Source: Larkinella humicola
Lineage (GTDB): Bacteria; Bacteroidota; Bacteroidia; Cytophagales; Spirosomataceae
DNA: 64,000 nucleotides
Direction of reading: 5' to 3'
Assembly (NCBI RefSeq): GCF_008727875.1
Contig: NZ_VTWS01000003.1
Span: 806,001 to 870,000, forward strand
Under the pieces are notes generated by a model. That model worked only from the letters and a program-made list of their open reading frames with translations. It ran no database searches and was not told the origin of the DNA. Made by a program: the position numbers and the translations under genes. Positions 1,099 to 19,604 of this stretch are shown one piece after another; within the stretch, counting starts at the first letter, position 1; every line of letters begins with the position of its first letter.

Positions 1099-1160
1099 AA
1101 ATTATCCATCTTTTCCCAAATAAACTCTATGGTTTATTTTATATGAATTTGTGTTTTTTG
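1099..1160 (+). promoter_or_regulatory. Shared bipartite regulatory motif, copy 1 (GH2 promoter)
   Basis: AAATTATCCAT at 1099-1109, CTCTAT at 1125-1130 and TTTG at 1157-1160. The offsets +26 and +58 are identical in copies at 10044 and 19543. The TTTG here lacks the TA two bases upstream seen in the consensus -7 box TAnnTTTG, so the promoter assignment is weaker than for copy 3. The two boxes repeat the CYAT core 21 bp apart, the geometry expected of AraC-type direct half-sites. The rest of the 907-1213 gap holds only the palindrome at 972-1067. Confidence 0.6.
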
Positions 1161-1213
1161 CATGACGATTAGGTAGATCACGGCTGATCATAAACCGCCT
1201 GATCGGGTTCACA

Positions 1214-4099
1214 ATGCAAAAAAGGGGGCTATTCATTTTTATCCTTTCCATCGGAAGCTGGCTTGCCAATTCTACACAAGCCGTCAGTCAATCCAAACTT
1301 TCGCTCGCCGGGGAGTGGCAACTCCGTTTAGACCCCGCCGATCTGGGTTTACGGGAACACTGGTGGCAGGGAACCTACCCCGATCGGGTGAAGCTACCGG
1401 GTTCTTTAACGGAAAACGGAAAGGGGAATGACATTACCCTGCAAACACCCTGGGTCGGCGATGTCATCGACAGCACGTATTTTTTCGCGGACAGCTACAA
1501 AAAATACCGCGAGAATCCCATCAAAATACCGTTCTGGCTTCAATCCGTCAAGTATTACGCCGGACCGGCCTGGTATCGACGCCAGATTGAAATTCCCGCC
1601 AACTGGGCCAAAAAACGCATGACGCTGAACCTGGAACGCTGCCATTGGGAAACAATGGTATACGTTAATGGCCAGTTCTGCGGCACCCGCAACTCCCTCG
1701 TGGCTCCCCATCAGTTCGACCTGACCAAACACCTTCGACCGGGCACTAATACCATCGCTATTCGGGTCGACAACCGGTATAAACTGCACATTGGCCCCAA
1801 TTCGCACAGCGTTGCCGATCATACGCAAACCAACTGGAATGGGTTGGTCGGTGATTTGTCGGTAACCGCCGAAGCACCAACGTATATTGAAGACGTTCAA
1901 GCCTTTCCAAATCTGGCAACTCAATCGATCAAAGTGACGATGGCGCTTCGCCAGCCCCGGCACCAGGAATTTCAGGGGAAGCTGATTCTACAGGCCCGGA
2001 GTTTGCAAAAAAATGGCGCGGCCTTGCCGGAATTCACGCAGGCCGTTCGGTTCACCGGCGAAGAAACCACGGTAAACCCAACGTATGCCATACCGAATCC
2101 GCAACGCTGGGACGAGTTTAACCCCAACCTGTACAAATTGCACGTTCGGCTGGTCAGCGATCAGGGCGAGTTGCTATCGGAACGGGAGGTGACGTTTGGC
2201 ATGCGCGAAATGAGTACGAGCGGAACGCGACTGGCCATCAACGGTCGCCCGATTTTTCTGCGGGGCGATGTCGAATGCGCCACCTTCCCGCTGACGGGCT
2301 ATCCGCCAACGGCGGAACCGTACTGGGAAAAAATCATGAAAACCGCCAAAAGTTACGGCCTGAATCATCTGCGCTTTCACTCGTGGTGTCCGCCCGAAGC
2401 GGCATTTGACGTGGCCGACCGGCTTGGCGTGTATCTGTACGTGGAAAGCCCGCTGTGGGCCAACCAGAGCAGTGCCGTCGGCACCGGTGGCGTAATCGAC
2501 GATTTCATTTACCAGGAATCGGAACGCATTCTGAAAGCGTACGGCAATCACCCGTCGTTTTGCATGATGTCCTACGGCAATGAACCAGCCGGACCCGAGC
2601 AGAACGAGTTTCTGGGTCGCTGGGTCGATCATTTCAAGCAAAAAGACAACCGCCGACTCTACACCAGTGGCGCGGGCTGGCCGATGATTCCTGAAAACCA
2701 GTTTCATATTCATTCCGACGCCCGGATTCAGCGGTGGGGCGAGGGCGTGAAAAGCATCATCAACGCGGGAACGCCCAAAACCAGTTACGACTGGCGCGAG
2801 ATCACCAAAACCGCTACGGCACCCTACGTCAGCCATGAAATCGGGCAGTGGTGCGTTTATCCGAATTTCAAGGAGATCGCTAAATACACCGGCGTGGTGC
2901 GGGCGAAAAATTTTGAAATTTTCAAGGAAACGCTCGAAGCCAACGGCATGGGCGATCAGGCCGAAGCCTTTCTGCATTCGTCGGGTCGTTTGCAGACGCT
3001 TTGCTATAAAGCCGATATCGAAGCGGCCCTGCGCACGCCCGGTTTTGCCGGTTTTCAGTTGCTGGGGTTACACGATTTTCCGGGACAGGGCACCGCGCTG
3101 GTGGGCGCGCTGGATGTTTTCTGGGAATCCAAAGGCTACACCACCCCTGAGGAATACCGCACGTTTTGCAGCCCAACGGTTTTGCTGGCCCGCATGGAAA
3201 AGCTCGTGTATGAAAACAATGAAACGTTACAGGCCGCTGTGGAAATCGCCCACTTTGGCGCGGGCGAGTTGACCAACCAAACCGTGCTCTGGCAGGTGCT
3301 CGATGCAGCCGGTAAAGTAAAACGAAGTGGTTCGCTGACCAAAGACAAGATAGCAATTGATAACCTCCAGTCGGTCGGAACCATTCAATTGCCGCTGGCG
3401 GGTTTCAAAAAACCGGAGATGCTTACGTTGAAAGTCGCGTTGAAAGGGGCTGAGAGTACGAATTCCTGGAATTTCTGGGTCTATCCGGCGGGCGTTGATG
3501 CCGATGCGGCTACGGGCAAAGTTATTGTTGCTCATACGTTAACGCCGGATGTTGTCAATCAATTGCAGAACGGCGCGAACGTGTTGCTGTTGCCCTACGG
3601 ACACGTCAAAAAAGGCAAAGGGGCTGAAGTGGAGATTGGGTTTTCGAGTGTTTTCTGGAATACGTCCTGGACCAAAGGGCAGGCTCCGCACACGCTCGGT
3701 CTGGTTTGCAACCCGGCTCATCCGCTGTTTGCCAGCTTCCCGACCGAAGCCAGCAGCAACTACCAGTGGCAGGATCTGGTCAGTCATTCGCAAACCGTCA
3801 TTCTGAACGGTTTTCCGAAAAACCTCCGTCCGCTGATTCAGCCGATCGATACCTGGTTTGAAAACCGCCGGTTGTCGCTGGCCTTCGAAGGCCGGGTTGG
3901 CAAAGGAAAACTGCTGGTGTGCAGCATCGATCTGGAAAGTGATCTGGCCAAACGCCCGTCCGCCCGGCAGTTGAAATACAGCCTGCTGAACTACATGAAC
4001 AGCAGCCAGTTTAAGCCCGCGAACGAGCTGGCACTCGATCAGGTAAACCAGTTGTTTCAGGCCGAAACGTCTCTGCTTAGTCCGAGCTTAAAGAACTAG
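1214..4099 (+). CDS. Glycoside hydrolase family 2 protein, secreted
   Basis: A 961-residue protein with an N-terminal signal peptide (hydrophobic FIFILSIGSWLA, cleavage near residue 23-26). The order fits GH2: an N-terminal jelly-roll sugar-binding domain (about 30-215), an immunoglobulin-like domain (about 220-335), then a TIM barrel (about 340-640). The acid/base site is visible as SYGNEP with E457, and the likely nucleophile is E542 in SHEIGQW. The C-terminal 300 residues are less typical of simple GH2 enzymes. GH2 enzymes hydrolyse beta-galactosides, glucuronides, mannosides and related bonds; the exact substrate cannot be read from sequence. It is the first gene of the carbohydrate island and carries the shared regulatory motif upstream. 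It probably acts in the periplasm on oligosaccharides. Confidence 0.85.
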   Translation: MQKRGLFIFILSIGSWLANSTQAVSQSKLSLAGEWQLRLDPADLGLREHWWQGTYPDRVKLPGSLTENGKGNDITLQTPWVGDVIDSTYFFADSYKKYRENPIKIPFWLQSVKYYAGPAWYRRQIEIPANWAKKRMTLNLERCHWETMVYVNGQFCGTRNSLVAPHQFDLTKHLRPGTNTIAIRVDNRYKLHIGPNSHSVADHTQTNWNGLVGDLSVTAEAPTYIEDVQAFPNLATQSIKVTMALRQPRHQEFQGKLILQARSLQKNGAALPEFTQAVRFTGEETTVNPTYAIPNPQRWDEFNPNLYKLHVRLVSDQGELLSEREVTFGMREMSTSGTRLAINGRPIFLRGDVECATFPLTGYPPTAEPYWEKIMKTAKSYGLNHLRFHSWCPPEAAFDVADRLGVYLYVESPLWANQSSAVGTGGVIDDFIYQESERILKAYGNHPSFCMMSYGNEPAGPEQNEFLGRWVDHFKQKDNRRLYTSGAGWPMIPENQFHIHSDARIQRWGEGVKSIINAGTPKTSYDWREITKTATAPYVSHEIGQWCVYPNFKEIAKYTGVVRAKNFEIFKETLEANGMGDQAEAFLHSSGRLQTLCYKADIEAALRTPGFAGFQLLGLHDFPGQGTALVGALDVFWESKGYTTPEEYRTFCSPTVLLARMEKLVYENNETLQAAVEIAHFGAGELTNQTVLWQVLDAAGKVKRSGSLTKDKIAIDNLQSVGTIQLPLAGFKKPEMLTLKVALKGAESTNSWNFWVYPAGVDADAATGKVIVAHTLTPDVVNQLQNGANVLLLPYGHVKKGKGAEVEIGFSSVFWNTSWTKGQAPHTLGLVCNPAHPLFASFPTEASSNYQWQDLVSHSQTVILNGFPKNLRPLIQPIDTWFENRRLSLAFEGRVGKGKLLVCSIDLESDLAKRPSARQLKYSLLNYMNSSQFKPANELALDQVNQLFQAETSLLSPSLKN

Positions 4100-4133
4100 A
4101 ACTTAGGTATGATACTCAAATTGTGTTCACAAA

Positions 4134-4287: not shown

Positions 4288-7200
4288 ATGGCTTTGCAGG
4301 AAGTAACTGTGTGGGAAGAATCGGTTGTGATTCCCACGTATGGTGTCGGCGCACCCGAAAAAAATCCGATGTTTCTGGAAAAACGGGTGTATCAGGGCAG
4401 CAGCGGGGTGGTGTATCCCCATGCCGTGATCGAAAAGATCGACGATCACAAGGAGGACCGGACCTACCAGGCGGTTTTTCTGGAAAACCGCTACCTGAAA
4501 ATCATGGTGTTGCCCCAGTTGGGCGGACGGATTCAGATGGCTTACGATAAAATCAAAAACCGTCATTTCGTCTATTACAACCAGGTGATCAAACCCGCAC
4601 TGGTCGGGCTGACAGGGCCGTGGATTTCGGGCGGTATCGAGTTCAACTGGCCGCAGCACCACCGCCCCAGCACGTTTGAGCCGGTGGATTATACGACCGA
4701 AGCGCATCCCGACGGCTCCAAAACCGTGTGGGTCAGCGAAGTGGAGCGGATGTTTCACACCAAAGGCATGGCCGGTTTTCGGCTGCATCCTGATAAAGCC
4801 TACCTCGAAATTCAGGGCGTGCTGTACAACCGCACGCCCGTTCCGCAGACTTTTTTGTGGTGGACGAATCCGGCCGTCAAAGTGAATGATCACTACCAGT
4901 CGGTTTTTCCGCCGGATGTGTATGCGGTTTTCGACCATGGAAAACGGGATGTTTCCTCGTTTCCGATTGCCACCGGGACCTACTACAAAGTGGATTATTC
5001 ACCGGGAACGGATATTTCGCGGTACAAGAACATTCCGGTCCCAACGTCTTACATGGCCGTGGCGTCGAAGTATGATTTTATGGGCGGCTACGAACACGAC
5101 AGCCGGGGCGGTTTGCTGCATGTAGCCAATCACCATTTGTCGCCCGGTAAAAAGCAGTGGACCTGGGGCAACGGCGAGTTTGGCTACGCCTGGGATCGCA
5201 ACCTGACCGACGAAGACGGGCCGTATATCGAGCTGATGACCGGCGTTTTTACGGACAACCAACCCGATTTTTCGTGGATCATGCCCAATGAAGAACGGAC
5301 GTTTGTGCAGTACTTCATGCCGTACAGCGAAATCGGCATCGTCAAAAACGCTACGAAGGAAGCCGCTGTCAATCTGGAACTTACATATAAAACCGTCCAG
5401 ATCAGCGCGTATGCCACCGCCGTGTACGCCGGGGCCGTCATTCGATTGACAAAAAATGGAAACGTGGTTTTTGAACAACGGATTGAGCTTTCGCCGGAAA
5501 AACCGTTTCTGCATGAAATCCCGCTTTTTGCCCCTATATCCCCTAAAGGGGACCTTTTGCATCCGGAGGATTTTGCGTCCGAGTCCCCTTCAGGGGATAT
5601 AGGGGTATTCCGCCTGAGCGTCGAAACCGCTGACGGCCTGGAACTGGTCGCTTACCAGCCCGACGAAGTAGCGGAGACAACGGTTATTCCGGAACCGGCG
5701 CAGGCCGCTCTGGACCCCGCCGAGGTGGAAAACAACGAGCAGTTGTATCTGACGGGGTTACACATCGAGCAATACCGCCACGCAACCTATGTTGCCACCG
5801 ATTATTACGAAGAAGCCCTGCGCCGTGATCCGAAGGATGTGCGGTGCAACAACGCCCTGGGGCTTTGGCATATGAAACGCGGTCAGTTCGCCAAAGCGGA
5901 ACCGTATTTCAGGCAAGCCATTCAGACACTGATCCAGCGAAATCCGAATCCGTACGACGGCGAACCGTATTACAACCTCGGCCTGTGTTTGCAGGGGGTG
6001 GGGCGGTATGACGAAGCCTTCGACGCGTTTTTCAAAGCCACCTGGAATGCCGCCTGGCAGGACACCAGCTTTCTGGAACTGGCTCGCATTGCCACCCGGC
6101 GGAAAACCTATACCCAGGCCCTCGAACTGGTCGAGCGTTCACTGGCGCGTAACTGGCACGGGCATTCGGCGCGGCATTTAAAAGTCGCTTTGCTGCGGAA
6201 AACCGGGCGAACCCACGAGGCTTTGCAACTCATCAACGACACCCTGGCGATCGACCGGTTTCATTTCGGCTGTCTGTTCGAAAAATCGCTCCTCTTGCAA
6301 ACCGACGACGCAACGGCTGCGGCCCAGACGCGGAGCCAGCTTAACGACCTGATGCGCTACAACGTCCATACCTACCTGGACTACGCGCTGGATTACAGCC
6401 GGGCCGGTTTATACGACGAAGCCATTCAACTGCTCTCGGAATTGCTGAAAACTGGAAAAGCAGTTTATCCGATGGTGTATTACTTTCTGGCCTTTTTCAA
6501 CACGCAGTTGGGCCAAACCGAAACCGCTCACGATCATCTCAAAAAAGCCACCGAAGCCAGTCCTGACTTTGTGTTCCCCAACCGGCTGGAAGAATTGATG
6601 GTTTTGCAATGGGCGGTTTTGCAAAAACCGGATAATCAGCCGATTAATCACGCCCATGCCTGGTATTTTCTGGGCAATTTCTGGTATGGCAACCGGCAAT
6701 ATGAAGAAGCCATCGACGCCTGGGAGCGGTCCGTGAATTTCGATAATACCTTTCCCACCGTGCACCGGAATCTCTCTTTGGCGTATTACAACAAACAGCA
6801 ACGGGCCGACAAAGCACTGGCGTCTCTGGAAATCGCCTTTGCGCTGGATACCGCCGATGCGCGGGTACTGATGGAGTTGGATCAGTTGTATAAAAAGCTG
6901 AATTACCCGCACGAAGAGCGGCTGGCACTACTGGAAAAACATCTTGATACAACCGAAGAGCGCGATGACCTGTCTTTAGAGCGAATCACGCTGTATAATC
7001 AGCTCGGCGCGTATGAAAAAGCCCGTGATTTGCTGGCCACCCGGCAATTTCATCCGTGGGAGGGGGGCGAAGGCAAAGTGGTGAGTCAGTACCTGATTTG
7101 CCACATCGAACTGGCGAAACAGGCGTTGCAAAATGCGGATTATTCGGAGGCTCTGACTTTACTGACGGCCGCTGAAACCTATCCGGTCAATCTGGGCGAA

Positions 7201-7716
7201 GGCAAACTGTATGGCGTGCAGGAGCCTGATATTTTCTATTTGAAAGGCTTGGCCTGCGAAGCGATGGGCGAAACGCAAACCGCCCGATCGTATTTTGAAC
7301 GGGCATCAGTCGGTTTGGATGCGCCGGTACAGGCGGTTTTCTACAACGATCAGCAACCGGACAAACTGTTTTATCAGGGACTGGCCTGGAAAAAACTGGG
7401 GCAGAACGACCGGGCCGAAAAGCTCTTCAAGATGCTGATTCAGTACGGAGAAACGCACCTGAACGACGCCATCAAGATCGATTATTTCGCGGTATCGCTC
7501 CCCGATTTACTGGTCTTTGATGCCGATCTGAACGAACGAAACCGCATCGGTTGTCAGTACCTGATGGGCCTTGGTCACCTGGGTTTGGGAAATGGACATA
7601 TCGACCGGGCCTTAAGTAGTTTTGATGCCGTTCTGGCGAGTGATCGCAACCACCAGGGCGCAGCTTTGCACCGAAAAATGGTCGATTTTCTAACCACACA
7701 GGTCGTTTCGGGTTAG
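4288..7716 (+). CDS. DUF5107 domain protein with C-terminal TPR repeats
   Basis: 1142 residues with no signal peptide, so probably cytoplasmic. Residues about 1-400 match the DUF5107 type: aromatic-rich beta-sandwich with LPQLGGRIQMAYDK and SGGIEFNWPQHHRP, resembling the sugar-mutarotase-like fold. Residues about 480-1130 are many tetratricopeptide repeats (for example the segment EALRRDPKDVRCNNALGLWH). The function is not established; the family often sits beside glycosidases, and a role in handling sugars or sensing the pathway is inference. Residues 415-441 (roughly APISPKGD to ESPSGDIGV) are encoded by a family A palindromic element (5531-5605) that keeps the frame. The stop overlaps the convergent AraC gene's stop within TTAG at 7713-7716. 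Confidence 0.85.
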   Translation: MALQEVTVWEESVVIPTYGVGAPEKNPMFLEKRVYQGSSGVVYPHAVIEKIDDHKEDRTYQAVFLENRYLKIMVLPQLGGRIQMAYDKIKNRHFVYYNQVIKPALVGLTGPWISGGIEFNWPQHHRPSTFEPVDYTTEAHPDGSKTVWVSEVERMFHTKGMAGFRLHPDKAYLEIQGVLYNRTPVPQTFLWWTNPAVKVNDHYQSVFPPDVYAVFDHGKRDVSSFPIATGTYYKVDYSPGTDISRYKNIPVPTSYMAVASKYDFMGGYEHDSRGGLLHVANHHLSPGKKQWTWGNGEFGYAWDRNLTDEDGPYIELMTGVFTDNQPDFSWIMPNEERTFVQYFMPYSEIGIVKNATKEAAVNLELTYKTVQISAYATAVYAGAVIRLTKNGNVVFEQRIELSPEKPFLHEIPLFAPISPKGDLLHPEDFASESPSGDIGVFRLSVETADGLELVAYQPDEVAETTVIPEPAQAALDPAEVENNEQLYLTGLHIEQYRHATYVATDYYEEALRRDPKDVRCNNALGLWHMKRGQFAKAEPYFRQAIQTLIQRNPNPYDGEPYYNLGLCLQGVGRYDEAFDAFFKATWNAAWQDTSFLELARIATRRKTYTQALELVERSLARNWHGHSARHLKVALLRKTGRTHEALQLINDTLAIDRFHFGCLFEKSLLLQTDDATAAAQTRSQLNDLMRYNVHTYLDYALDYSRAGLYDEAIQLLSELLKTGKAVYPMVYYFLAFFNTQLGQTETAHDHLKKATEASPDFVFPNRLEELMVLQWAVLQKPDNQPINHAHAWYFLGNFWYGNRQYEEAIDAWERSVNFDNTFPTVHRNLSLAYYNKQQRADKALASLEIAFALDTADARVLMELDQLYKKLNYPHEERLALLEKHLDTTEERDDLSLERITLYNQLGAYEKARDLLATRQFHPWEGGEGKVVSQYLICHIELAKQALQNADYSEALTLLTAAETYPVNLGEGKLYGVQEPDIFYLKGLACEAMGETQTARSYFERASVGLDAPVQAVFYNDQQPDKLFYQGLAWKKLGQNDRAEKLFKMLIQYGETHLNDAIKIDYFAVSLPDLLVFDADLNERNRIGCQYLMGLGHLGLGNGHIDRALSSFDAVLASDRNHQGAALHRKMVDFLTTQVVSG
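5531..5605 (-). repeat. Palindromic element family A, copy 3, inside a coding sequence
   Basis: Arms 5531-5553 and 5583-5605 match at 22 of 23 positions. The loop read on the minus strand is GGACGCAAAATCCTCCGGAT followed by GC, matching the loops of copies 1, 2 and 4, so this copy is inverted relative to them. It spans 75 bp (25 codons) in frame within the DUF5107 gene and encodes a proline/glycine-rich linker just before the TPR region. Confidence 0.9.
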
Positions 7717-8594
7717 GATTTCCGGAGTTTGCGGAAGTCGCGCGGAGACACGCCCATGACGTGGGCAAAAACCCGGCTGAAGTGGTACGGGTCGCTGTAC
7801 CCGATCTGATAGGCGACTTCCTTGATGCGCAATTGCGTGTTTTCAAGTAAACGGCAGGATTCCTGAATCTTTAAAAAGGTGAAGAAATTGATGGGCGCAC
7901 TTTGGACTTTGGTCCGAAAAACCGCCGAATAATGCGACGCCGACATACCCGCAATCTGCGCCAGGTCTTCCAGCGTCAGGTTCTTGCTCAGGTTTTCTTT
8001 CATGAACGCGATGGTTCGGCTGATCGGGTCATTTTCGGGTTGGGCAAACTGGTTGGGGTTATAAACCGCATTGTTGAACGTGGCCAGAAACCGCGACAGA
8101 CTGCTGTTGGCATACACAATATTGTCCATGTTATACGACATTTCAACGTGCGACAGAATGTCGTCGAAAAGTTGAAACCGTTCGGGCTGGGGCGACACGG
8201 TTACCGGGGAAGGATCGGTATCCTGCTTTAAAAACTGCAAAAAATGATGCGCGTTGGAACCGGTAAAATGCAGCCAGTAGATGGTCCAGGGATTTTGGGC
8301 GTCGGTTCCGTAGCGGTGGGCGAGGTCAGCGGGCAGGATAAAGGCCTGATTGGGTTTGACAAGGTGTTTACGGTCGTTGAGGACGTACCAGCCTTCCCCC
8401 TGAACGCAGTAGATCAGAATATGCTGCGGGCTTCCTTTCCGGCGTTCGCGGTCATGGAAAGCGGCTTTCGGATAATACCCGATATCGGTGATGTACAACG
8501 ACTCACAAAGCGGATGAACGGCAATCAGTTTTTTTAACTCGCCCGGCAACACATAACTGCGTTGTCCGGCAAAGCCTTCTTTCTTTTTGATCAT
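7713..8594 (-). CDS. AraC family transcriptional regulator
   Basis: 293 residues. The N-terminal half is a cupin-like sensor domain (about 20-160, with HILIYCVQGEGWYVLN and a PNQAFILPADLAHRY segment). The C-terminal AraC DNA-binding domain has two helix-turn-helix units (about 190-290: NLTLEDLAQIAGMSASHYSAVF and IKEVAYQIGYSDPYHFSRVF), ending at the usual position. Family members bind a sugar in the cupin pocket and activate transcription from direct half-sites. It lies tail-to-tail with the DUF5107 gene and head-to-head with the sugar transporter, so it is the natural local regulator. I infer that it binds the AAATTATCCAT/CTCYAT motif found upstream of three operons here. Confidence 0.92.
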   Translation of the reverse strand: MIKKKEGFAGQRSYVLPGELKKLIAVHPLCESLYITDIGYYPKAAFHDRERRKGSPQHILIYCVQGEGWYVLNDRKHLVKPNQAFILPADLAHRYGTDAQNPWTIYWLHFTGSNAHHFLQFLKQDTDPSPVTVSPQPERFQLFDDILSHVEMSYNMDNIVYANSSLSRFLATFNNAVYNPNQFAQPENDPISRTIAFMKENLSKNLTLEDLAQIAGMSASHYSAVFRTKVQSAPINFFTFLKIQESCRLLENTQLRIKEVAYQIGYSDPYHFSRVFAHVMGVSPRDFRKLRKS

Positions 8595-10036: not shown

Positions 10037-10043
10037 TTTCATA

Positions 10044-10105
10044 AAATTATCCATCTTAATCGAAATTCTCTCTATTGATTTAGGCGTCGAAGCCTTTAAT
10101 CTTTG
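10044..10105 (+). promoter_or_regulatory. Shared bipartite regulatory motif, copy 2 (SusC promoter)
   Basis: AAATTATCCAT at 10044-10054, CTCTAT at 10070-10075, TTTG at 10102-10105: offsets +26 and +58 as in the other two copies. The -7 region reads TAATCTTTG, one base longer between TA and TTTG than the TAnnTTTG consensus. It begins 8 bp after the transporter stop, so susCD has its own controlled promoter. The leader to the SusC start is about 100 nt. Confidence 0.7.
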
Positions 10106-10210: not shown

Positions 10211-13200
10211 ATGAATCATTCTATACGGTGTCTGCAAACAACCCTGGTATTGGTTTGCCTTACACTGACCACTTTTGCCCAGAGCCTGATTACGGGCAAG
10301 GTGGTTGGTGAGCAAAACGATGGCATACCGGGTGCTACGATTACCATAAAGGGCACGACCCGGGGCACGACAACTGATGCTTCTGGCGGGTTTCAACTGA
10401 ATGCCAGCCCCAACGAAACGCTCGTATTCAGCTACGTGGGCTATGTGACTCAGGAAGCCGTTGTTGGCAACCGCACCAGCCTGACCATCAAAATGCTGAC
10501 CGACACCCGCAGTCTGGAAGAAGTAGTGGTGGTGGGCTACGGTACGGTGAAGAAAAGTGACCTGACCGGTTCGGTTTCGACCATCAAGGCCGATGCCATC
10601 AAGGAAATGCCGGTGGTTTCGGTCGATCAGGCCATTCAGTCGCGGGCACCTGGCGTTCAGGTGACCCAGAGTTCGGCGGCTCCGGGCGGTGGGATTTCCA
10701 TTCGTGTGCGGGGTGCCAACTCCATCAACAGCGGAAGTGAGCCGCTGTATGTCATCGACGGTTTTCCGATGTATCCCGACAATGGCGCGATGGGAACCGC
10801 GGGGAACCGGCAATCGAGCAACGCGATGGCCACCATCAACCCCAACGAAATTGAATCCATCGAAATTCTGAAAGATGCCTCCGCCACCTCGATTTACGGG
10901 TCGCGGGGTTCGAACGGGGTGGTTCTGATTACGACCAAACGCGGGAAAGAAGGCCAGAGCCGGGTCGATTACGAAGGATCGTACTCGTTCCAGCAAATTG
11001 CAAGGCCCATTGAAGTGTTGAACGGCAGCGATTACGCCCGGTATCTGAACCTTCTGGAACGAAGCCAGGGCGGCAGCCCTCGGTTTACCGACGCGCAAAT
11101 CAGCCAGATCGGCGAGGGCACCAACTGGCTGAATGCGATTACGCAAACCGGCGCACTGTCTAACCACCAGCTTTCGTTTACCGGCGGAAACAAGGCCATG
11201 CGGTATGCTTTCGTTGCCAACTATCTGGATAACAAGGGAATTGTCAAGAATACATTTTTCAAACGGTACGGTTTTCGGCTGAACCTCGACAATGATTTTC
11301 TCAACGGCCGGGCCACACTCAGCAATAGCTGGTCGTATAACCGGACAGGAAGCAGCAACGTGGCAACGGATCGGGGCGGCCCGGGCGGAATCATCATTAC
11401 GGCACTGGGCCTGGACCCAACCGTCGCGGTGTATGACCAGAATGGCAATTACAATTACCCCAGCTACGATCAGCGCTTCAACATCAACCCCCTGGCGGAA
11501 GCTCAGGAAGGCTACGACCGGGATAACATCAACCGGTTATTCGGAACCACGGCGCTGACCTTCAACATCATTGAGGGGCTGAAATTCCGGACCAGCCTGG
11601 GCGCTGATGTCGTGAATGCGACCCGTAACACGTTCTACAACAACTACACTTTCACCGGTCGGCAGTATGGCCGGCAACTGGAACGGGCCAACCGCAACGT
11701 CAGCAGCATCCTGAACGAAAACATTCTGAGCTACAACAAGCAAATCCGGCCGGGCCATAACCTCGACGTAACACTGGGATATACCTACCAGCAGGAGAGC
11801 AACCTGTTCAACTCGGCGTCGACGCGCGGACTGCCCTCGGACGATCCGGAGTCGGTTAACATGCAAAACGGTAGCAAACCGCAGATTCCCAATTCCGGGC
11901 GTCAGGACTGGGCCCTGCAATCGTTGCTGGGCCGGGTGAACTACAATCTGAAAGACCGCTACCTGTTTACGGTAACGTTCCGGCGCGATGGTTCGTCCCG
12001 GTTTGGCCCGAGCAACAAATGGGCCACGTTCCCTTCAGCGGCTGTTGGCTGGCGTCTGGTAAACGAAGATTTCTTCCAGAACTCGGCTCTGAAAAATGTG
12101 TTTGATGACGTTAAAATCCGGGCCAGCTACGGTCTGACGGGGAATTCACAAATCCCGGTTTACCGATCTTTGGGTGGTTTGTCGACCTACAATTATGTGT
12201 TCGGCGGTAGCCTGGCTGCGGGCTATGGCCCCAACCGGATTGCGAACCCCAACCTGAAATGGGAAAGCACGGCGATGCTGAACCTCGGTCTGGATCTGTC
12301 CCTGCTGAACAACCGCCTTTCGATGACCTTCGACGTGTTCAGCAACAAAACCACGGATCTGTTGCTGGATGTTTCCATTCCGCAGAGCACCGGTTTCAGC
12401 ACCATCATGTTGAACTCCGGATCGCTGACTAACAAGGGTGTTGAGTTTTCCACGAACTACAAAATCGTTAACAATGCCGCGTTTAAATGGGATGTGAGCG
12501 GTAATATTTCGGTGTTGCGGAATGAGATTACCAATTTGGGCCAAAGTACGCCCTTCTTCGCCAACAGCACCAGCGGCCACTTGGGCGTTTTTGGTAGCTG
12601 GGTAGAAGCCGGAAATCCGATCGGCGTCTGGAAAGGCTACAAATACGTCGGACTGTTTCAAACTGACGACGAAGGCAAGACCTTTGCCGCCCGCGCGGGC
12701 TATCCGAAATACGAAGACGTGAACGGCGACGGAAAATATACCGCCGATGATTACGTGGTGATGGGCAATCCAAACCCGAAATTTACCTGGGGACTGAATT
12801 CCAGTGTCAAGTTTAAAAATTTCGACCTGTCGATCTTCTTCCGGGGTGTTCATGGCAACGATGTACGGAACCTGCAACAGTCGGAAATGGGCGATGGGGT
12901 TCAGAAAATCAACCAGATTGGCGACATCCTGACGGATTCGTGGACGCCGACCAACACGGGTGCCAGCCGGCCCGTGATCGATGGTCGCCGGGATTTCATC
13001 TCCTTCCGCCGGTCGTCGTTCTTCATTCAGGACGGATCTTTTGTTCGGTTGCAAAACCTGGCGCTGGGGTATAACCTGCCGCTGAATACCAAATACATCC
13101 GGTCGGCCCGGATCTACGCCAGCGGTCAGAACCTGTTCCTGATTACGAAATACAAAGGATTCGATCCGGAAGTGAACAACCAGGGCCAGAACAACCTGAA

Positions 13201-13270
13201 CCGGGGCGATGACTACGACGCGTATCCCCGCGCCCGGATGTTTACGGTGGGAGTCAATCTTGGTCTGTAA
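10211..13270 (+). CDS. SusC/RagA family TonB-linked outer membrane protein
   Basis: 1019 residues. Signal peptide 1-23 (ends TTFAQ), carboxypeptidase-like regulatory domain about 26-108 (ITGKVVGEQNDGIPGATITI), then a TonB-box-like EEVVVVGYGTVKKSDLTGSV, a plug domain with IRVRGANSINSGSEPLYVID and YGSRGSNGVVLITTKRG, then a beta-barrel to the C-terminus. SusC proteins form the outer-membrane channel that imports glycan pieces with a SusD lid, powered by TonB. The partner SusD follows 29 bp downstream. Length and architecture are normal for the family. Confidence 0.97.
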   Translation: MNHSIRCLQTTLVLVCLTLTTFAQSLITGKVVGEQNDGIPGATITIKGTTRGTTTDASGGFQLNASPNETLVFSYVGYVTQEAVVGNRTSLTIKMLTDTRSLEEVVVVGYGTVKKSDLTGSVSTIKADAIKEMPVVSVDQAIQSRAPGVQVTQSSAAPGGGISIRVRGANSINSGSEPLYVIDGFPMYPDNGAMGTAGNRQSSNAMATINPNEIESIEILKDASATSIYGSRGSNGVVLITTKRGKEGQSRVDYEGSYSFQQIARPIEVLNGSDYARYLNLLERSQGGSPRFTDAQISQIGEGTNWLNAITQTGALSNHQLSFTGGNKAMRYAFVANYLDNKGIVKNTFFKRYGFRLNLDNDFLNGRATLSNSWSYNRTGSSNVATDRGGPGGIIITALGLDPTVAVYDQNGNYNYPSYDQRFNINPLAEAQEGYDRDNINRLFGTTALTFNIIEGLKFRTSLGADVVNATRNTFYNNYTFTGRQYGRQLERANRNVSSILNENILSYNKQIRPGHNLDVTLGYTYQQESNLFNSASTRGLPSDDPESVNMQNGSKPQIPNSGRQDWALQSLLGRVNYNLKDRYLFTVTFRRDGSSRFGPSNKWATFPSAAVGWRLVNEDFFQNSALKNVFDDVKIRASYGLTGNSQIPVYRSLGGLSTYNYVFGGSLAAGYGPNRIANPNLKWESTAMLNLGLDLSLLNNRLSMTFDVFSNKTTDLLLDVSIPQSTGFSTIMLNSGSLTNKGVEFSTNYKIVNNAAFKWDVSGNISVLRNEITNLGQSTPFFANSTSGHLGVFGSWVEAGNPIGVWKGYKYVGLFQTDDEGKTFAARAGYPKYEDVNGDGKYTADDYVVMGNPNPKFTWGLNSSVKFKNFDLSIFFRGVHGNDVRNLQQSEMGDGVQKINQIGDILTDSWTPTNTGASRPVIDGRRDFISFRRSSFFIQDGSFVRLQNLALGYNLPLNTKYIRSARIYASGQNLFLITKYKGFDPEVNNQGQNNLNRGDDYDAYPRARMFTVGVNLGL

Positions 13271-13299: not shown

Positions 13300-14868
13300 A
13301 TGAACCTGATTATTTCTTCCAAAGTCAAATCCCTGCTGATGCTGTCGGTCCTGGCCACGGGCCTCGGTTGCTCGGATCTCAAGGAAAACCCCGACTTTAT
13401 CAATCCCGACACGTTTTATAAATCGGCTACGGAACTGGAACTGGGCGTCAACGGTATTTACGACGATCTGAACTCCGGCTATTCCGGTTATTTCTATGAC
13501 CGCTACGTGTTTGAGTGTTTGACGGGCGACCAGATCGGCTGGGAAAAAGGCCCGCTGCAATACAACCTGGGGAACGTCAGCTCGGCCGATGAGTACATTG
13601 AGGCTTACTGGTCAATCAGTTACCGTTCCATCAACCGCGCCAATGCGGTGATCGAAACCGCCGATGCGATGAAAGATCCATCCAACGACGCCCTGGTAAA
13701 ACGCCTGAAGGCCGAAGCGCAGTTTCTGCGGGCGTTCTATTACTACGGTTTGCTGAGTTATTTTGACAATCCTCCGCTGACGACCAAATCGACCAAGGGC
13801 ATTAGTGAATTGCCGTCGAACGCGGGTGGAAAACGGGCGGTCATCGACCAGATTTACGCCGATGCCAAAGCCGCGGCTGAAGCATTGCCCGCAGCCTACA
13901 CCGGTGCCAACGCCGGACGGGCGACGAAATGGGCCGCCAAATCGATCCTGATGAAAGCCCAGCTTTGGGATGAAAAATGGGCCGACGCCAAAACCACCGC
14001 CGAAGACATTATCAACAACAGCGGTTTGCAGTTGTACGAAAACTTCGGGTATAACTTCGATCTGGCCCACGAAAACCAGGGCGAACGGATTTTTGAAGGC
14101 CAGGTTTCGGCAGCCGCCAACGCCAGCGAGTGGAATGTGCATTCAGCCCACTTCAATCCGGAAGATTATCCGAGCGAACTGGGTGGTGCAGGCTGGAGCT
14201 GGCTGAGCGCGACGCAGGAATTCCGGGCTTCGTACGACAGCAAGGACAAACGCATCGATGCCACGTTCATCGAATCATATCCAACGGGCCGCCTGGGCAA
14301 AGTCAACGGGCAATATCCGGTTGTGAAGTGGAGCCCAACAGCGGATTTCAACCTTTCCCGGTTTGGCGGTATTGTCAAGGCCGATGCGAATCCGGCGGAC
14401 CCTAATCAACTGGTTTTTGGCAAAGCCTGGGCGGGCAAGCTGGTGGAACTGGGTATTAACTACAACAATACCGAAAAGAACACCATCTACATCCGGCTGG
14501 CGGACATTCTACTGGGTCATTCCGAAGCCTGTAATGAAAGCAATGCGGGCGACAAGTTCATGGGAATCAATAAGGTACGTGCTCGTGCCGGTCTGACGGC
14601 CCTGAGCGGTTTGAGCCAGTCGGCGTTGCGGGATGCGATCATCAAAGAGCGCGAGCAGGAGTTCGTCTTTGAGCAGGTCATGTATCCGGAATTGCGTCGC
14701 AAAAGCAAACCGGGCGGACAGCCTGATTACCTGGGTGAGCGAATCAACCACTATATTACGAAATACAAAGTGGGCCGGACCCTCAAACCACGGGATTACG
14801 TGCTTCCACTCCCGCTGAAAGAAATGCAGGGAAATCCGAACGTAACGCAAAACCCGGTGTGGCAGTAA
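13300..14868 (+). CDS. RagB/SusD family nutrient uptake lipoprotein
   Basis: 522 residues. Lipoprotein signal peptide with lipobox ending at C24 (LATGLGC), followed by the SusD N-terminal motif LKENPDFINPDTFYKSATEL. TPR-like helices carry the nearly invariant stretch AEAQFLRAFYYYGLL. The C-terminal SusD domain contains YIRLADILLGHSEACN and EREQEFVFE, with the usual ending LPLKEMQGNPNVTQNP. It sits at the cell surface, binds glycan and covers the SusC channel. It is cotranscribed with susC; a terminator follows at 14971. Confidence 0.96.
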   Translation: MNLIISSKVKSLLMLSVLATGLGCSDLKENPDFINPDTFYKSATELELGVNGIYDDLNSGYSGYFYDRYVFECLTGDQIGWEKGPLQYNLGNVSSADEYIEAYWSISYRSINRANAVIETADAMKDPSNDALVKRLKAEAQFLRAFYYYGLLSYFDNPPLTTKSTKGISELPSNAGGKRAVIDQIYADAKAAAEALPAAYTGANAGRATKWAAKSILMKAQLWDEKWADAKTTAEDIINNSGLQLYENFGYNFDLAHENQGERIFEGQVSAAANASEWNVHSAHFNPEDYPSELGGAGWSWLSATQEFRASYDSKDKRIDATFIESYPTGRLGKVNGQYPVVKWSPTADFNLSRFGGIVKADANPADPNQLVFGKAWAGKLVELGINYNNTEKNTIYIRLADILLGHSEACNESNAGDKFMGINKVRARAGLTALSGLSQSALRDAIIKEREQEFVFEQVMYPELRRKSKPGGQPDYLGERINHYITKYKVGRTLKPRDYVLPLPLKEMQGNPNVTQNPVWQ

Positions 14869-14953: not shown

Positions 14954-14970
14954 AATTTGATCAATCAAAG

Positions 14971-15022: not shown

Positions 15023-18000
15023 ATGAAGTACCTATTCCTCTTGCCGGTTTTCCTGTGCATCCTGGCCTGCGAGCAAAAGCCGAAGACGCTCTTTACCACC
15101 TTGCCCGCTTCACAAACCGGCGTCCATTTCCAGAATTCCATTACCGAAAACGACTCCTTTAATCTGGTCGATTATTATTATGTCTACAACGGCGGGGGCG
15201 TCGCGGTCGGTGATTTGAACAACGACAACCTGCCCGATTTGTATTTCACCGGCAATCAGGTGGGCGACCGGATGTATTGGAACACCACCAAACCCGGTTC
15301 GGATTCGCCCACCTTCGAGGACGTGACGGACAAGGCCGGTATTCAGAAAGGCGGCTGGTCGACTGGGGTCACGATGGCCGATGTGAATGCCGACGGGCTG
15401 CTGGATATTTACGTTTGTAAGTCCGGGAATTACGCCGGAAGCCGCCGGAAAAATCAGCTCTACATCAACAAAGGGAATTTTCAGTTTGAAGAAAGCGCCG
15501 AACGCTACGGTCTGGACGATACCAGTTACACCAATCAGGCTACGTTTTTTGATTACGACAAGGACGGTGATCTGGACGTTTTTTTGCTGACCAGTACGAA
15601 TCTGGTTCGCAATCCCAACCAGGTGACGCCGGTCATTGCCGACGGTTCCGGGCTGGCCAACGACAAGCTGTTTCGCAACGATTCGAAGGCATCGGGACCC
15701 CGGTTTACGGACGTGACCAAAGCGGCCGGTATTCTGCACGACGGTTTCGGGTTGGGGCTGACGGTTTCGGATTTCAATCAGGACGGCTGGGAGGACATTT
15801 ACGTCGCCAACGACTTTCTGGCGAACGATTTTCTGTACGTCAACAACCGGAACGGGACCTTCAGCGAAGTCAGTAAATCGTATTTCAAGCACCACAGCCA
15901 GTTTTCGATGGGCTGCGATGCTGCCGACATCAACAACGACGGCTTACCGGATCTGGTCGTAGCCGACATGCTGCCCGCCGACAACGAGCAGCGTAAAAAA
16001 ATGGCGGGGGCCGCTAACTATCAGCAGTTTGAAAGCATCACCCGCCAGGGCTATCACCCGCAGTTTATGCGCAATATGCTGCAGGTGAACGGCGGAAAAG
16101 CCGCCGACGGCCGGATCGTTTTCTCCGAAATTGGGCAGTTCGCCGGGGTTTCGTCCACCGACTGGAGCTGGTCGCCTTTGCTGGCCGATCTGGACAACGA
16201 CGGCTGGCGGGATCTGGTCATCACGAATGGCTATCTGCGCGACATTACCGATCTGGATTTTGTATCGTTCAACGATTCCTTCGCGCAGGGAAACCGCACG
16301 CCCGAAGAAATTAATGCGTATCTGCGGCAGGGCGCACCCAAAATGCCGAGCATCAAAAAGGCCAACCGGTTTTTCCGAAACCGTCGCGATCTGACCTTTG
16401 ATGATGTGACCGCCACCTGGTTCGGCTCGGAAACATCCCTGTCGAATGGGTCAGCCTACGCCGATCTCGACCGCGACGGTGATCTGGATTTGATTGTCAA
16501 CAACATCAACCAGGACGCCTACATCCTACAAAACGCGACCGCCAACTCGCATTACCTGCAACTGAAATTACAAGGCCCGAAACAGAACCGGTTCGGACTG
16601 GGGGCGGATGTGACACTCTACAACAACGGATTGACGCAAACGCATCATCAGGCCGTTACGCGGGGCTATCAATCGTCAGTCGATTACATTATTCACTTTG
16701 GTTTGGGTGCCGCAAAAACCGTTGATTCCCTGCGGATTGTGTGGCCGGATGGCAAATTGCAGACGCTCAAAAAACCGGGCATCGACCGGCTGGTATCGTT
16801 GGATTACCGTCAAGCTACCCAAACCGCCCGGCAACCGGAAATCCGCCCGGTCACGCTGCTGACCGACGTAACCCAGGCATCTGGAATAAGGCTGACGCAC
16901 CAGGAAGAGTCGTATCTGGATTACAACCAGGAACCGCTTTTGCCGCACAAACTCTCGCAACAAGGCCCGAAACTGGCGGCAGGCGATGTTAACGGCGACG
17001 GTCTGGAAGATCTGTTCGTGGGCGGTTCGTTCCGGCATTACGGAAAATTGCTGATCCAGACGTCGGCAGGGCGGTTTATCGAAAAACCGTACACCGATGA
17101 ATCGCAGCCGAAAGACGAGGAGGATGTTGGGGCGCTGCTGTTCGACGCGGATGGCGATGGCGATAAGGATTTGTACATTGTCAGCGGCTCCAACGAGTAT
17201 TACGACGGTTCCGAGTATTACCAGGACCGGCTGTATCTCAACGACGGAAAAGGCAAATTTACGGCAGCCACCGACCGATTACCGGCCATCCGGCACAGTG
17301 GTTCGTGTGTGCTGGCGGTTGATGTGGACAAAGACGGTGACCTCGACCTGTTCCGGGGTGGGCGACTGAAGGCGTTGCAATATCCTCTGCCCGGCGAAAG
17401 CTACGTATTGATCAACGACGGCGGGCGCTTTCGGAATGCAACGGATGAGCTGGCACCCAACCTGCGGAACGTCGGTATGGTGACCGATGCGGTTTGGGCC
17501 GACATCGACCGCGATTCGTGGCCGGATCTGGTGGTGGTGGGTGAAATGATGCCGATTACGGTTTTCAAAAATAACCGGGGCCGACTCGTGCCCTTGTCGC
17601 TGGAGGCACTGAAAGGCTCGGAAGGGTTCTGGAATTGCATTCGTTCCGGTGATTTCGACCACGATGGCGATCTTGATTTTGTGATTGGCAATCTGGGGCT
17701 GAACAGCCGCTACCGGGTGTCGCCCAGCCAGCCGATGCGCATCTACGCGGGTGATTACGACAATAACGGTCGGCTCGATGCCATCGCCACCTATTATTTA
17801 GACGGCATCGAATATCCGATTGCGTCCCGCGACGAGCTGGGTCGCCAGTTGCCCCTCATCAAAAAGCAGTTCACGAATTACGCCCTCTACGCCAAAGCCA
17901 AAGTCACCGACCTGCTGACGCCCGAGCGACAAAAAATCAGCACGGTTTTGCAGGCTTGCTGGCAGCAAAGTGTATTCCTCGAAAATACCGGCGGCAGTTT

Positions 18001-18331
18001 CCGGCTTCAACCCTTGCCTGCGCTTGCTCAGTGGGCACCCATCCAGAGTTTGCTGGTGGAAGACATCAATCAGGACGGTCATCTCGACGTGCTGGCGGTC
18101 GGAAACGCGTATGATGCCGAGTCGGTGGCCGGACAATACGATGCGATGACGGGACTCGTGCTGAAAGGCGACGGAAAAGGCGGATTTCAGCCATTATTGT
18201 TTCCGCAAAGCGGTTTTCTGGCGGATGGCGATTGCAAATTCATCGTTGGAGTCAACAGCCCTGCCCAGCGGCTGATTGTGGTCTCGGTCAATAATGGCCC
18301 TTTAAAGGTCTTTCAGCCCAGGAAGAACTAG
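15023..18331 (+). CDS. FG-GAP/VCBS-repeat lipoprotein with ASPIC/UnbV-like domain
   Basis: 1102 residues. Lipobox ends at C16 (LCILAC), so it is a lipoprotein. I count about 14 calcium-type DxNxDGxxD motifs along the chain (for example DLNNDNLPDLYF, DVNADGLLDIYV, DYDKDGDLDVFL, DINQDGHLDVLA), which implies two beta-propeller blocks. Between them, about residues 515-590, is an ASPIC/UnbV-like segment (LQLKLQGPKQNRFGLGADVT, HFGLGAAKTVDSLRIVWPDG). Such proteins are common next to SusC/SusD pairs; their role is not settled, and glycan or surface binding is inference. Its last codon overlaps the convergent HxlR gene's stop (CTAG, 18328-18331). Confidence 0.88.
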   Translation: MKYLFLLPVFLCILACEQKPKTLFTTLPASQTGVHFQNSITENDSFNLVDYYYVYNGGGVAVGDLNNDNLPDLYFTGNQVGDRMYWNTTKPGSDSPTFEDVTDKAGIQKGGWSTGVTMADVNADGLLDIYVCKSGNYAGSRRKNQLYINKGNFQFEESAERYGLDDTSYTNQATFFDYDKDGDLDVFLLTSTNLVRNPNQVTPVIADGSGLANDKLFRNDSKASGPRFTDVTKAAGILHDGFGLGLTVSDFNQDGWEDIYVANDFLANDFLYVNNRNGTFSEVSKSYFKHHSQFSMGCDAADINNDGLPDLVVADMLPADNEQRKKMAGAANYQQFESITRQGYHPQFMRNMLQVNGGKAADGRIVFSEIGQFAGVSSTDWSWSPLLADLDNDGWRDLVITNGYLRDITDLDFVSFNDSFAQGNRTPEEINAYLRQGAPKMPSIKKANRFFRNRRDLTFDDVTATWFGSETSLSNGSAYADLDRDGDLDLIVNNINQDAYILQNATANSHYLQLKLQGPKQNRFGLGADVTLYNNGLTQTHHQAVTRGYQSSVDYIIHFGLGAAKTVDSLRIVWPDGKLQTLKKPGIDRLVSLDYRQATQTARQPEIRPVTLLTDVTQASGIRLTHQEESYLDYNQEPLLPHKLSQQGPKLAAGDVNGDGLEDLFVGGSFRHYGKLLIQTSAGRFIEKPYTDESQPKDEEDVGALLFDADGDGDKDLYIVSGSNEYYDGSEYYQDRLYLNDGKGKFTAATDRLPAIRHSGSCVLAVDVDKDGDLDLFRGGRLKALQYPLPGESYVLINDGGRFRNATDELAPNLRNVGMVTDAVWADIDRDSWPDLVVVGEMMPITVFKNNRGRLVPLSLEALKGSEGFWNCIRSGDFDHDGDLDFVIGNLGLNSRYRVSPSQPMRIYAGDYDNNGRLDAIATYYLDGIEYPIASRDELGRQLPLIKKQFTNYALYAKAKVTDLLTPERQKISTVLQACWQQSVFLENTGGSFRLQPLPALAQWAPIQSLLVEDINQDGHLDVLAVGNAYDAESVAGQYDAMTGLVLKGDGKGGFQPLLFPQSGFLADGDCKFIVGVNSPAQRLIVVSVNNGPLKVFQPRKN

Positions 18332-18669
18332 ATCACGGTTCTATGATGCTTCGCCCAGCTAATCATTTCGCTCAGCATTGGCCAGAGCGTTTTGCAATAC
18401 TCCGTGATTTCATATTCGATGAGGACGGGCGTTTCATTATGTACCGTTCTGGTTACCAACTTATTCATTTCCAATTCCTTCAACTCTTTTGAAAGCATCC
18501 TGAACGTAATATTCGGGATGCTTTTGGCAATTTCCCGGTAGCGCTTGTGGCCGCTGCTTAGCGATACGATGATCAATACTTTCCATTTACCGCTGATTAC
18601 ATACAAGGTGTCCTGAATGTATTTCAGATCGGTTGGGCAACTGAAGTTGCAGACGTATTCCTCTTTCAT
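18328..18669 (-). CDS. HxlR family winged-helix transcriptional regulator
   Basis: 113 residues from ATG at 18667-18669 (MKEEYVCNFSCPTDLKYIQD). It shows the HxlR pattern: CPTD near the N-terminus, ISGKWKVLIIVSLSSG, RYREIAKSIPNITFRMLSKE, then the wing with PVLIEYEITEYCKTLWPML. The frame stays open much further upstream, but that part lies antisense to the SDR gene and has no family similarity. HxlR proteins often sense electrophiles or oxidants through a conserved cysteine and repress a divergent oxidoreductase; that arrangement is present here. Confidence 0.9.
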   Translation of the reverse strand: MKEEYVCNFSCPTDLKYIQDTLYVISGKWKVLIIVSLSSGHKRYREIAKSIPNITFRMLSKELKELEMNKLVTRTVHNETPVLIEYEITEYCKTLWPMLSEMISWAKHHRTVI

Positions 18670-18696
18670 GTTGTGGGTGCTATTCCCGATGATAGC

Positions 18697-18749
18697 GCTA
18701 TACCTTAGTATACTGCACACAAATGTATAGCAACTGGTGCATACTTTTG
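18697..18749 (+). promoter_or_regulatory. Operator/promoter region between HxlR and SDR genes
   Basis: An exact -7 box TACTTTTG (TAnnTTTG) lies at 18742-18749, 21 bp before the SDR start. Upstream are inverted copies GCTATAC (18697-18703) / GTATAGC (18725-18731) and an 8-bp palindrome AGTATACT (18707-18714). These are plausible HxlR binding sites; which is used is not determined. Confidence 0.6.
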
Positions 18750-18769
18750 CAGCCATACTAAAAACGAAC

Positions 18770-19519
18770 ATGAAAAAGTTAGCAAACAAAGTCGCAGTGG
18801 TCACCGGTGGAAACAGCGGAATCGGTTTATCAACCGCCATACTATTTGCCGAACAGGGTGCCAACGTAGCCATTACCGGCCGCAACCCGATTTCTTTAGA
18901 CCGTGCTGTAGAAGCCATAGGCCACGGAGCGGTCGGCATTGTCAGTGATGTTTCCGATGTAAACAACATCACAAAAGCGTATGAAAAAGTAAGCGAAGTG
19001 TTTGGCAAGATTGACGTACTGGTCGTCAATGCGGGTGTAAATCATGCCGGGCCGTTAGCCGACTATACGGAAGAACAATTCGATCAGATCAGCGACATCA
19101 ATTTCAAAGGGGCCTTTTTTTCGGTGCAGCGCGCGTTGCCGTATTTAAATGATGGAGCGTCCATTATTCTGACTTCCAGCGCCGTAAACGAAAAAGGATT
19201 TAGCAATGGGGCGGCCTATTCGGCTACAAAAGCGGCCGTCCGGTCATTGGCCCGAAGTTTTTCGACCGAATTGATGGACCGGAATATCCGGGTGAACGTT
19301 CTGTCACCCGGCGCGATTGACACCCCATTTTTCGGCCGAGGTGGTGCTTCACAGGAAGAAGTTGATGGCACAAAAGAATACATGGCCAGCATTATCCCCG
19401 CGAAACGGCTGGGCACGGTTGAGGAAGTTGCGGAAGGATTCCTCTATTTAGCCTCGGATGCTTCTAAATACATGGTTGGTTCCGAATTAGTCATGGATGG
19501 CGGAGTAAAAACTTTGTAA
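18770..19519 (+). CDS. SDR family NAD(P)-dependent oxidoreductase
   Basis: 249 residues from ATG at 18770 (MKKLANKVAVVTGG). Rossmann cofactor motif TGGNSGIG at 12-19, NAG at 87-89, catalytic S137, Y150 and K154 (YSATK) with the normal 13-residue Ser-Tyr spacing. The C-terminal DGG near the end is also typical of classical SDRs. The residue after the second strand is in TGRNP, suggesting NADP preference (inference). The substrate is unknown. The gene is transcribed away from the HxlR regulator, which probably controls it. An upstream in-frame start at 18737 would place the start codon inside the promoter. Confidence 0.9.
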   Translation: MKKLANKVAVVTGGNSGIGLSTAILFAEQGANVAITGRNPISLDRAVEAIGHGAVGIVSDVSDVNNITKAYEKVSEVFGKIDVLVVNAGVNHAGPLADYTEEQFDQISDINFKGAFFSVQRALPYLNDGASIILTSSAVNEKGFSNGAAYSATKAAVRSLARSFSTELMDRNIRVNVLSPGAIDTPFFGRGGASQEEVDGTKEYMASIIPAKRLGTVEEVAEGFLYLASDASKYMVGSELVMDGGVKTL

Positions 19520-19542
19520 TAGGCTCTTCAGCAAATTCCGTA

Positions 19543-19604
19543 AAATTATCCATGTAAAGCAAAATTTGCTCCATTCCGATTAGGATTATGGCTGACTAAA
19601 TTTG
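19543..19604 (+). promoter_or_regulatory. Shared bipartite regulatory motif, copy 3 (cytochrome/DUF1549 promoter)
   Basis: AAATTATCCAT at 19543-19553, CTCCAT at 19569-19574, and an exact -7 box TAAATTTG at 19597-19604, with offsets +26 and +58 as in the other copies. This copy best links the motif to a real promoter. The start codon at 19638 is 33 bp beyond the -7 box. Confidence 0.75.

Follow-up and report, generated by a model that had tools for sequence, protein, structure and literature searches.

A proposed AraC-family operator shared by glycan-use and DUF1549/DUF1501 genes in Larkinella humicola

The window analysed here is a 64,000-nt stretch of the Larkinella humicola genome (contig NZ_VTWS01000003.1, positions 806,001 to 870,000). 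It carries a carbohydrate cluster whose genes encode, in order, a GH2 glycosidase, a DUF5107-TPR protein, an AraC-family regulator (opposite strand), an MFS transporter, SusC, SusD, an FG-GAP/UnbV protein, an SDR protein, a PSCyt1-DUF1549-DUF1553 protein and a DUF1501 protein (Table 1). Adjoining SusC and SusD genes together with a gene for a carbohydrate-active enzyme (CAZyme) make this a polysaccharide utilization locus (PUL). An initial annotation, made from the letters alone, had noticed one bipartite motif upstream of the GH2, SusC and cytochrome/DUF1549 genes and an AraC gene at 7713-8594 on the minus strand, and gene annotation bears out all of these genes. To judge from sequence comparison, the three elements are very probably operators of this AraC-family protein, which would activate the GH2, SusC and DUF1549 operons as one regulon.

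The motif AAATTATCCAT occurs at 1099, 10044 and 19543 and nowhere else on either strand of the window; shuffled sequences held 0.08 copies on average, and three or more copies arose in 0 of 100 shuffles. Counting from its first base, CTCTAT (at 1099 and 10044) or CTCCAT (at 19543) begins at +26 and TTTG at +58 in all three, exactly as first reported, and the CCAT and CYAT cores lie 21 bp apart. The surrounding DNA had been called otherwise different, which does not hold just upstream of AAATTATCCAT (CGTT, CATA and CGTA at the three sites) or between the cores (AAAT or similar, +19 to +23); this likeness is found because each element is a longer half-site. Likewise, what had been termed a promoter motif is better divided into an operator, comprising both half-sites, and an ordinary -7 box. 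The -7 box is less certain at the GH2 promoter than at those of SusC and DUF1549, since its TTTG at +58 closes a longer run, TTTTTTG, and another TTTG stands at +49. Throughout the genome (7.86 Mb), the 32-base core AAATTATCCAT-N15-CTCYAT with at most one mismatch was found only at the three window places, with 0 matches to a reversed control; it is a feature of these three promoters and is not scattered genome-wide. The shorter TTATCCAT-N15-CTCYAT has one further exact place (C16:278549) and four with one mismatch; the exact one overlaps the apparent start of a sigma-factor-like gene, as read from the translation, and was rejected as a chance occurrence.

A matrix built from 18 Larkinella sites over -6 to +37, with the TTTG outside it, was scanned along both strands of 25 regions (1,072,576 positions). 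The 34 top-scoring positions all lie upstream of GH2, SusC, DUF1549 or MFS homologues; the first positions without a gene downstream are ranks 35 and 36. Sixteen of the 34 come from outside the training set, so the matrix is not circular: they are GH2 sites (genomes G048, G051, G125, G129, G180, G215 and G216), SusC sites (G196, G205, G211, G215, G216 and Rhodocytophaga), DUF1549 sites (G211 and Rhodocytophaga) and an MFS site (G120). Fifteen of these have TTTG exactly at +58; the sixteenth, the Rhodocytophaga DUF1549 site, has ATTG there. From 75 matrix rows we chose 43 sites, dropping those without a gene downstream and the G004/G007 copies of the GH2 and SusC sites, which are almost identical; TTTG is at +58 in 41 of the 43, and no other offset between -12 and +8 has it in more than four, but this choice was made with the bases through TTTG visible, and 15/16 is the unbiased figure. 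The TA of TAnnTTTG is correctly placed in 14 of the 43; in the window the DUF1549 promoter is a full match, and the GH2 and SusC promoters match in TTTG only.

Information over 42 sites reaches at least 1 bit at columns -4 to 0, 2-10, 12-15, 17, 20-21, 23, 28-32, 55 and 58-62 and never exceeds 0.6 bits from +39 to +54; the sites are mutually related and were matrix-chosen over -6 to +37, so that these values are not independent evidence, TTTG not having been required by the matrix. As a direct repeat the half-sites agree best at a spacing of 21 bp, about two helix turns, with an identity of 0.519; over the range 15-29 no other offset exceeds 0.359. This is in keeping with the AraC-type direct half-sites that had been proposed. 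The Bacteroides fragilis promoter consensus has a second part, TTTG around -33 (PMC7366714), and the -7 box is placed at -12 to -5 (PMC9723704), which puts the half-sites at about -70 to -56 and -49 to -35. No TTTG is conserved near -33 in our sites, where columns +32 to +38 carry 0.4 to 1.0 bits. The same layout is found with AraC-type activators that contact polymerase, as at E. coli araI1-araI2, a 21-bp repeat covering about -70 to -35. A looser pattern, RATTATCCAT-N16-TCYAT, matched 59 times in 41 of 222 family genomes; 43 of these matches do not lie near an AraC orthologue, and the reversed control matched as well. Being too short, the pattern was discarded as evidence, and the matrix and the following model were used instead.

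The model, R1 (72 columns, built from 30 of the 43 sites), was run over the 222 family genomes, with AraC orthologues defined by at least 52% identity and the non-homologue class by no match at an expect value (E) of 1e-40. The association was counted from 96 R1 rows, those down to E 0.003 and five weaker ones, under strict search filters that lose weak matches. An AraC orthologue is present in 23 of the 222 genomes, and all 23 have a site at E < 1e-6, a count that must be held to be partly circular because R1 includes sites from orthologue genomes; no site of a remote AraC homologue was included. Among the 161 genomes without a homologue, a site below 1e-4 was found in only two (G127 and G058), one of which has an AraC remnant, and the motif thus passed the comparison with AraC-less relatives that the initial annotation had set as its own test. 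The 46 matches below 1e-7 comprise 42 within 22 kb of an orthologue, two on other contigs of orthologue genomes and the two in G127 and G058. Another 13 fall between 1e-7 and 1e-4: four near orthologues, six near homologues of 39-46% identity (G054, G080, G085, G091, G096, G103) and three on contigs without a homologue (G047, G090, G189). Above about 1e-4, more matches among those listed fall in AraC-less genomes, as expected of background. Where the only homologue is a remote one (35-46%), 8 of 38 genomes show a site below 1e-4.

The site accompanies the AraC orthologue in altered gene orders (G048, G128, G078 and Rhodocytophaga), and also reaches other groups: among 14 loci with AraC homologues of 35-44% identity (L083-L096), five have a site at E < 1e-4, namely an Ignavibacteriae metagenome-assembled genome (L083, with two sites at E 2.5e-10 and 4.9e-9), Muribaculaceae (L091), Parabacteroides (L084), Mediterranea (L085) and Olivibacter (L092). 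In L084 and L091 the site separates AraC from a divergent MFS gene, and in L085 from a divergent GH2 gene. In several other genera the divergent AraC/MFS region (window counterpart 8595-8695) has the site followed by GTAAA and often by GTAAAAGTAC; these could be part of the promoter of the AraC gene, which therefore may control itself in those genera. A search of the window's own MFS/AraC divergent promoter with filters off found no site, the next-best match being a single half-site within the AraC gene (8118-8143, E 0.015). What the DNA shows directly is the presence of the sites, their geometry and conservation, and their association with AraC.

Seven of the nine Larkinella-group genomes searched have an AraC orthologue, at 86-100% identity, and two (G006 and G008) do not. 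The core with at most one mismatch is present in five of the nine, each time within 12 kb of AraC, and in neither G006 nor G008; in G001 and G002 the sites are present with more changes. At the GH2 promoter of the seven genomes the sequence from the site to TTTG is nearly unchanged and the alignment upstream is poor, leaving an island of identity. The DUF1549 gene belongs to the cluster in four of the seven (G000, G003, G004, G007), and all four have the site ahead of it. The earlier prediction of an AraC regulon joining glycan uptake to the DUF1549/DUF1501 pair is supported, except that only some members count the pair in their regulon. More broadly, the DUF1549 protein has a close homologue in 189 of the 222 family genomes, and a site lies 24-92 bp upstream in nine of the 150 homologues listed (the nine motif rows were picked by eye, and the distance was checked by script against at least 150 listed homologues). 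Eight of the nine are in AraC-orthologue genomes, seven of them near AraC and one on another contig (G205); the ninth is a weak match (E 0.0015) in G099 near a 42% homologue.

Several observations weigh against a regulon run by this AraC protein. Linkage alone would make the cluster genes and AraC travel together. G127 keeps a site about 470 bp ahead of its DUF1549 gene without a working AraC, and G058, whose assembly is 82% complete, lacks an AraC orthologue and has a site, on a contig of 6 kb. No match below 1e-4 was found in 30 of the 38 remote-homologue genomes, two of the eight positives are on another contig, and nine of the 14 loci L083-L096 lack a site at E < 1e-4. Within Larkinella, the DUF1549/DUF1501 pair is outside the cluster in G001, G002 and G005, and the MFS promoter site is only a decayed copy (judged by eye); in G048 the DUF1549 gene is in the cluster, yet the matrix scan found no site ahead of it. 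As for G127, the 3' end of an AraC gene remains beside the site (64 nt at 78% to G128; residues 254-293 at 47.5%), and because this piece still adjoins the site the loss looks recent. Linkage covers part of the co-occurrence; it does not cover the exact geometry, the spread with remote homologues in other gene orders, an unlinked site in G189 or a loss in G197. G189 has its AraC orthologue (67%) on contig C19 and a second GH2 homologue (66% to the window GH2) at about 346 kb of the 706-kb contig C12, with a site (E 2.4e-5) ending 37 bp ahead of the start codon; the case stands alone and is a weak one, the first half of this site being poor. G197, of the Spirosoma group, retains DUF1549 (78%) and DUF1501 (88%) and has no AraC homologue beyond 28% likeness in the helix-turn-helix (HTH) region; its DUF1549 promoter has no site, unlike those of G196, G205, G211 and G216, and R1 found none in the surrounding 20 kb at E 0.5.

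The AraC-family protein has 293 residues and only cupin and HTH families, with no sensor kinase. Its C-terminal double HTH scores above the Pfam cut-offs (PF00165/PF12833; 73.5 vs 26.6 and 65.9 vs 33.6 bits), as does the ligand-binding cupin PF02311 (59.7 vs 21.1 bits). With 97.8 bits against a cut-off of 208 for the equivalog NF007860, it is not an orthologue of E. coli AraC, and it does not have the build of a hybrid two-component system (HTCS), in which periplasmic sensor, kinase and receiver are joined in one protein. Its relatives by identity are in Larkinella sp. C7 (100%), L. punicea (97%), L. rosea (91%), L. knui (90%) and L. arboricola (84%), and the presumed recognition-helix segments are almost unchanged in the nearer orthologues. 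Two loci show uneven likeness: Rhodocytophaga aerolata (L081) has a SusC 79% and an AraC only 59% identical to the window proteins, and L077, a record titled Flavobacterium sp. SUN052, has an AraC at 81%. Such unevenness points to transfer of parts of the cluster or to a record with the wrong label.

We infer binding and activation, together with the operon extents, the inducer and the substrate. An AraC dimer would bind two half-sites, approximately C-R-T-A-A-N-A-T-T-R-T-C-C-A-T and then, in the same register 21 bp on, a second ending Y-A-T. These would lie on one DNA face just upstream of a sigma-ABfr-type -7 box, where they would replace a good -33 element. The cupin domain would sense a sugar and the protein would most likely contact RNA polymerase, jointly activating the GH2-DUF5107, SusC-SusD-FG-GAP and DUF1549-DUF1501 operons. 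The regulon is probably one for beta-galactosides, for example galactan or xyloglucan side chains, and the protein is probably an activator of their use.

The same protein might instead bind as a repressor or looping switch in the style of E. coli ara, with sugar releasing the operons. The downstream half-site does abut the -33 region, and the site in the AraC/MFS divergent region of other genera could repress AraC itself; but the constant 26 bp from half-site to TTTG across four promoter classes fits an activator-dependent promoter, of which the missing TTTG near -33 is also expected, and the AraC-family CgrA of Zobellia acts positively on its own cluster (PMC5698469), so we consider repression unlikely. 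It seems very unlikely that the AraC gene is a mere neighbour and that the sites are bound by a different regulator, be it an HTCS, an AraC paralogue encoded elsewhere or an extracytoplasmic function sigma/anti-sigma pair. The genome has 51 AraC-type HTH matches at E 0.001, and HTCS of Bacteroides likewise use 21-bp direct repeats (PMC3878776), but the only other regulator among the window genes scanned, of HxlR type, is in just two of the seven Larkinella clusters, and the site tracks the AraC orthologue through the gene-order changes named above, is also found near 38-44% homologues in other orders, and is missing where the AraC gene is missing in G197. Duplicated promoter DNA or a dispersed repeat devoid of regulatory meaning deserves practically no credence, even though short repeats do occur in the cluster: half-sites and -7 box are conserved between promoters and +39 to +54 hardly at all, and the conservation across genera and orders contradicts it.

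Apart from its regulator, the cluster shows some features of its own. The GH2 enzyme, presumably a GH2_20 member, scores 1211.7 bits against NCBIfam NF049890 (BT4151-type exo-beta-1,4-galactosidase), under the cut-off of 1500; it is a near relative. A PDB search at E 0.01 found no relative of the DUF1501 or DUF1549 protein. Among the partners of this AraC the DUF5107-TPR protein is a very constant one; it is also encoded in the loci of Parabacteroides, Muribaculaceae, Mucilaginibacter and Olivibacter, and the one paper found to mention DUF5107 concerns marine protists. The SDR gene and a divergent HxlR-type HTH gene (91.9 bits) occupy 18331-19519, between FG-GAP and DUF1549, an arrangement found only in G000 and G007 among the seven Larkinella clusters, both of which keep the DUF1549 site. 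Palindromic repeats resembling repetitive extragenic palindromic (REP) elements, with arms around TCCCCTAAAGGGGA, lie in and between cluster genes (972-1067, 4124-4243, 5515-5572, 14876-14963); the 36-nt arms of the first are fully complementary, and a piece resembling this repeat precedes the FG-GAP gene in G004.

Table 1. Operator, promoter and gene features of the cluster, in window coordinates
Feature	Position	Strand	Remark
GH2 operator, upstream half-site CGTTAAATTATCCAT	1095..1109	+	
GH2 operator, downstream half-site CCAAATAAACTCTAT	1116..1130	+	21 bp further
GH2 promoter, TTTG of presumed -7 box	1157..1160	+	alternative TTTG at 1148-1151
GH2 glycosidase	1214..4099	+	nearest models: exo-beta-1,4-galactosidase BT4151, PDB 8u01
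DUF5107 + TPR protein	4288..7716	+	presumably served by GH2 promoter; no own site found in window
AraC-family regulator, AraC_binding cupin + HTH_AraC	7713..8594	-	proposed binder of the sites
Sugar porter family MFS transporter	8696..10036	+	promoter site in other genera, decayed in Larkinella
SusC operator, upstream half-site CATAAAATTATCCAT	10040..10054	+	
SusC operator, downstream half-site CGAAATTCTCTCTAT	10061..10075	+	
SusC promoter, TTTG of presumed -7 box	10102..10105	+	
SusC-family TonB-dependent transporter	10211..13270	+	
SusD-family lipoprotein	13300..14868	+	
FG-GAP / ASPIC-UnbV repeat protein	15023..18331	+	frequent cluster partner
DUF1549 operator, upstream half-site CGTAAAATTATCCAT	19539..19553	+	
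DUF1549 operator, downstream half-site CAAAATTTGCTCCAT	19560..19574	+	
DUF1549 promoter, -7 box TAAATTTG	19597..19604	+	complete TAnnTTTG match
PSCyt1-DUF1549(PSCyt2)-DUF1553(PSD1) protein	19638..22409	+	probable ATG 19638; weak CBM6-like stretch under Pfam cut-off
DUF1501 protein	22411..23925	+	

Systems of this kind are known. E. coli AraC at araI1-araI2 (pBAD) has two direct half-sites, given as TAGC-N7-TCCATA and TAGC-N7-ACCTGA (PMC4514859), and shares with ours the TCCAT box and the AraC_binding plus HTH_AraC build; here, however, the first box is CRTA rather than TAGC, the presumed -7 box is of sigma-ABfr type and the targets are those of a PUL. The HTCS regulons of Bacteroides thetaiotaomicron combine an AraC-type HTH with direct repeats averaging 21 bp and SusC/D targets (PMC3878776), unlike the present regulator with its cupin and HTH alone in 293 residues. 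The carrageenan regulon of CgrA in Zobellia galactanivorans likewise has a positive regulator of the AraC family, encoded together with sugar transporters in a glycan cluster of a Bacteroidota species (PMC5698469); its substrate and genes are different, and no operator appears in the parts of that paper drawn on here. A study of freshwater Verrucomicrobia from 2017 stated that no function was known for PSCyt proteins (the DUF1549/DUF1553 kind) or for what is encoded beside them, and suggested a role in carbohydrate metabolism (PMC5615132). The PSCyt/PSD clusters of Verrucomicrobia and Planctomycetes described there resemble ours in that PSCyt proteins have neighbours without known function; the parts of that paper drawn on here describe no regulator or operator, whereas here the pair shares the operator of a sugar cluster. 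A literature search for DUF1501 together with DUF1549 found nothing, and the titles returned for AraC direct repeats in Bacteroidetes, for an AraC regulon in Spirosoma and, loosely, for PSCyt regulation with SusC include none describing this regulon, which appears new within the literature searched.

An operator common to a SusC/D pair and a galactosidase-like GH2 links DUF1549/DUF1501 of some species to an uptake system of beta-galactoside type and gives a growth condition under which their function may be sought, and a binding-site model has been gained for an AraC clade that spans several orders. Beyond this, we would only tentatively suggest, at less than even odds, that the pair of regulator and operator is an old one in Bacteroidota (Cytophagales, Bacteroidales and an Ignavibacteria genome) with a fixed -7 geometry, and that the DUF1549-DUF1553 cytochrome with DUF1501 forms a sugar-induced periplasmic module in several lineages, probably oxidising beta-galactosides imported by SusC/D. 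If this were true, it would provide the first regulon and the first substrate handle for the widespread DUF1549/DUF1501 pair.

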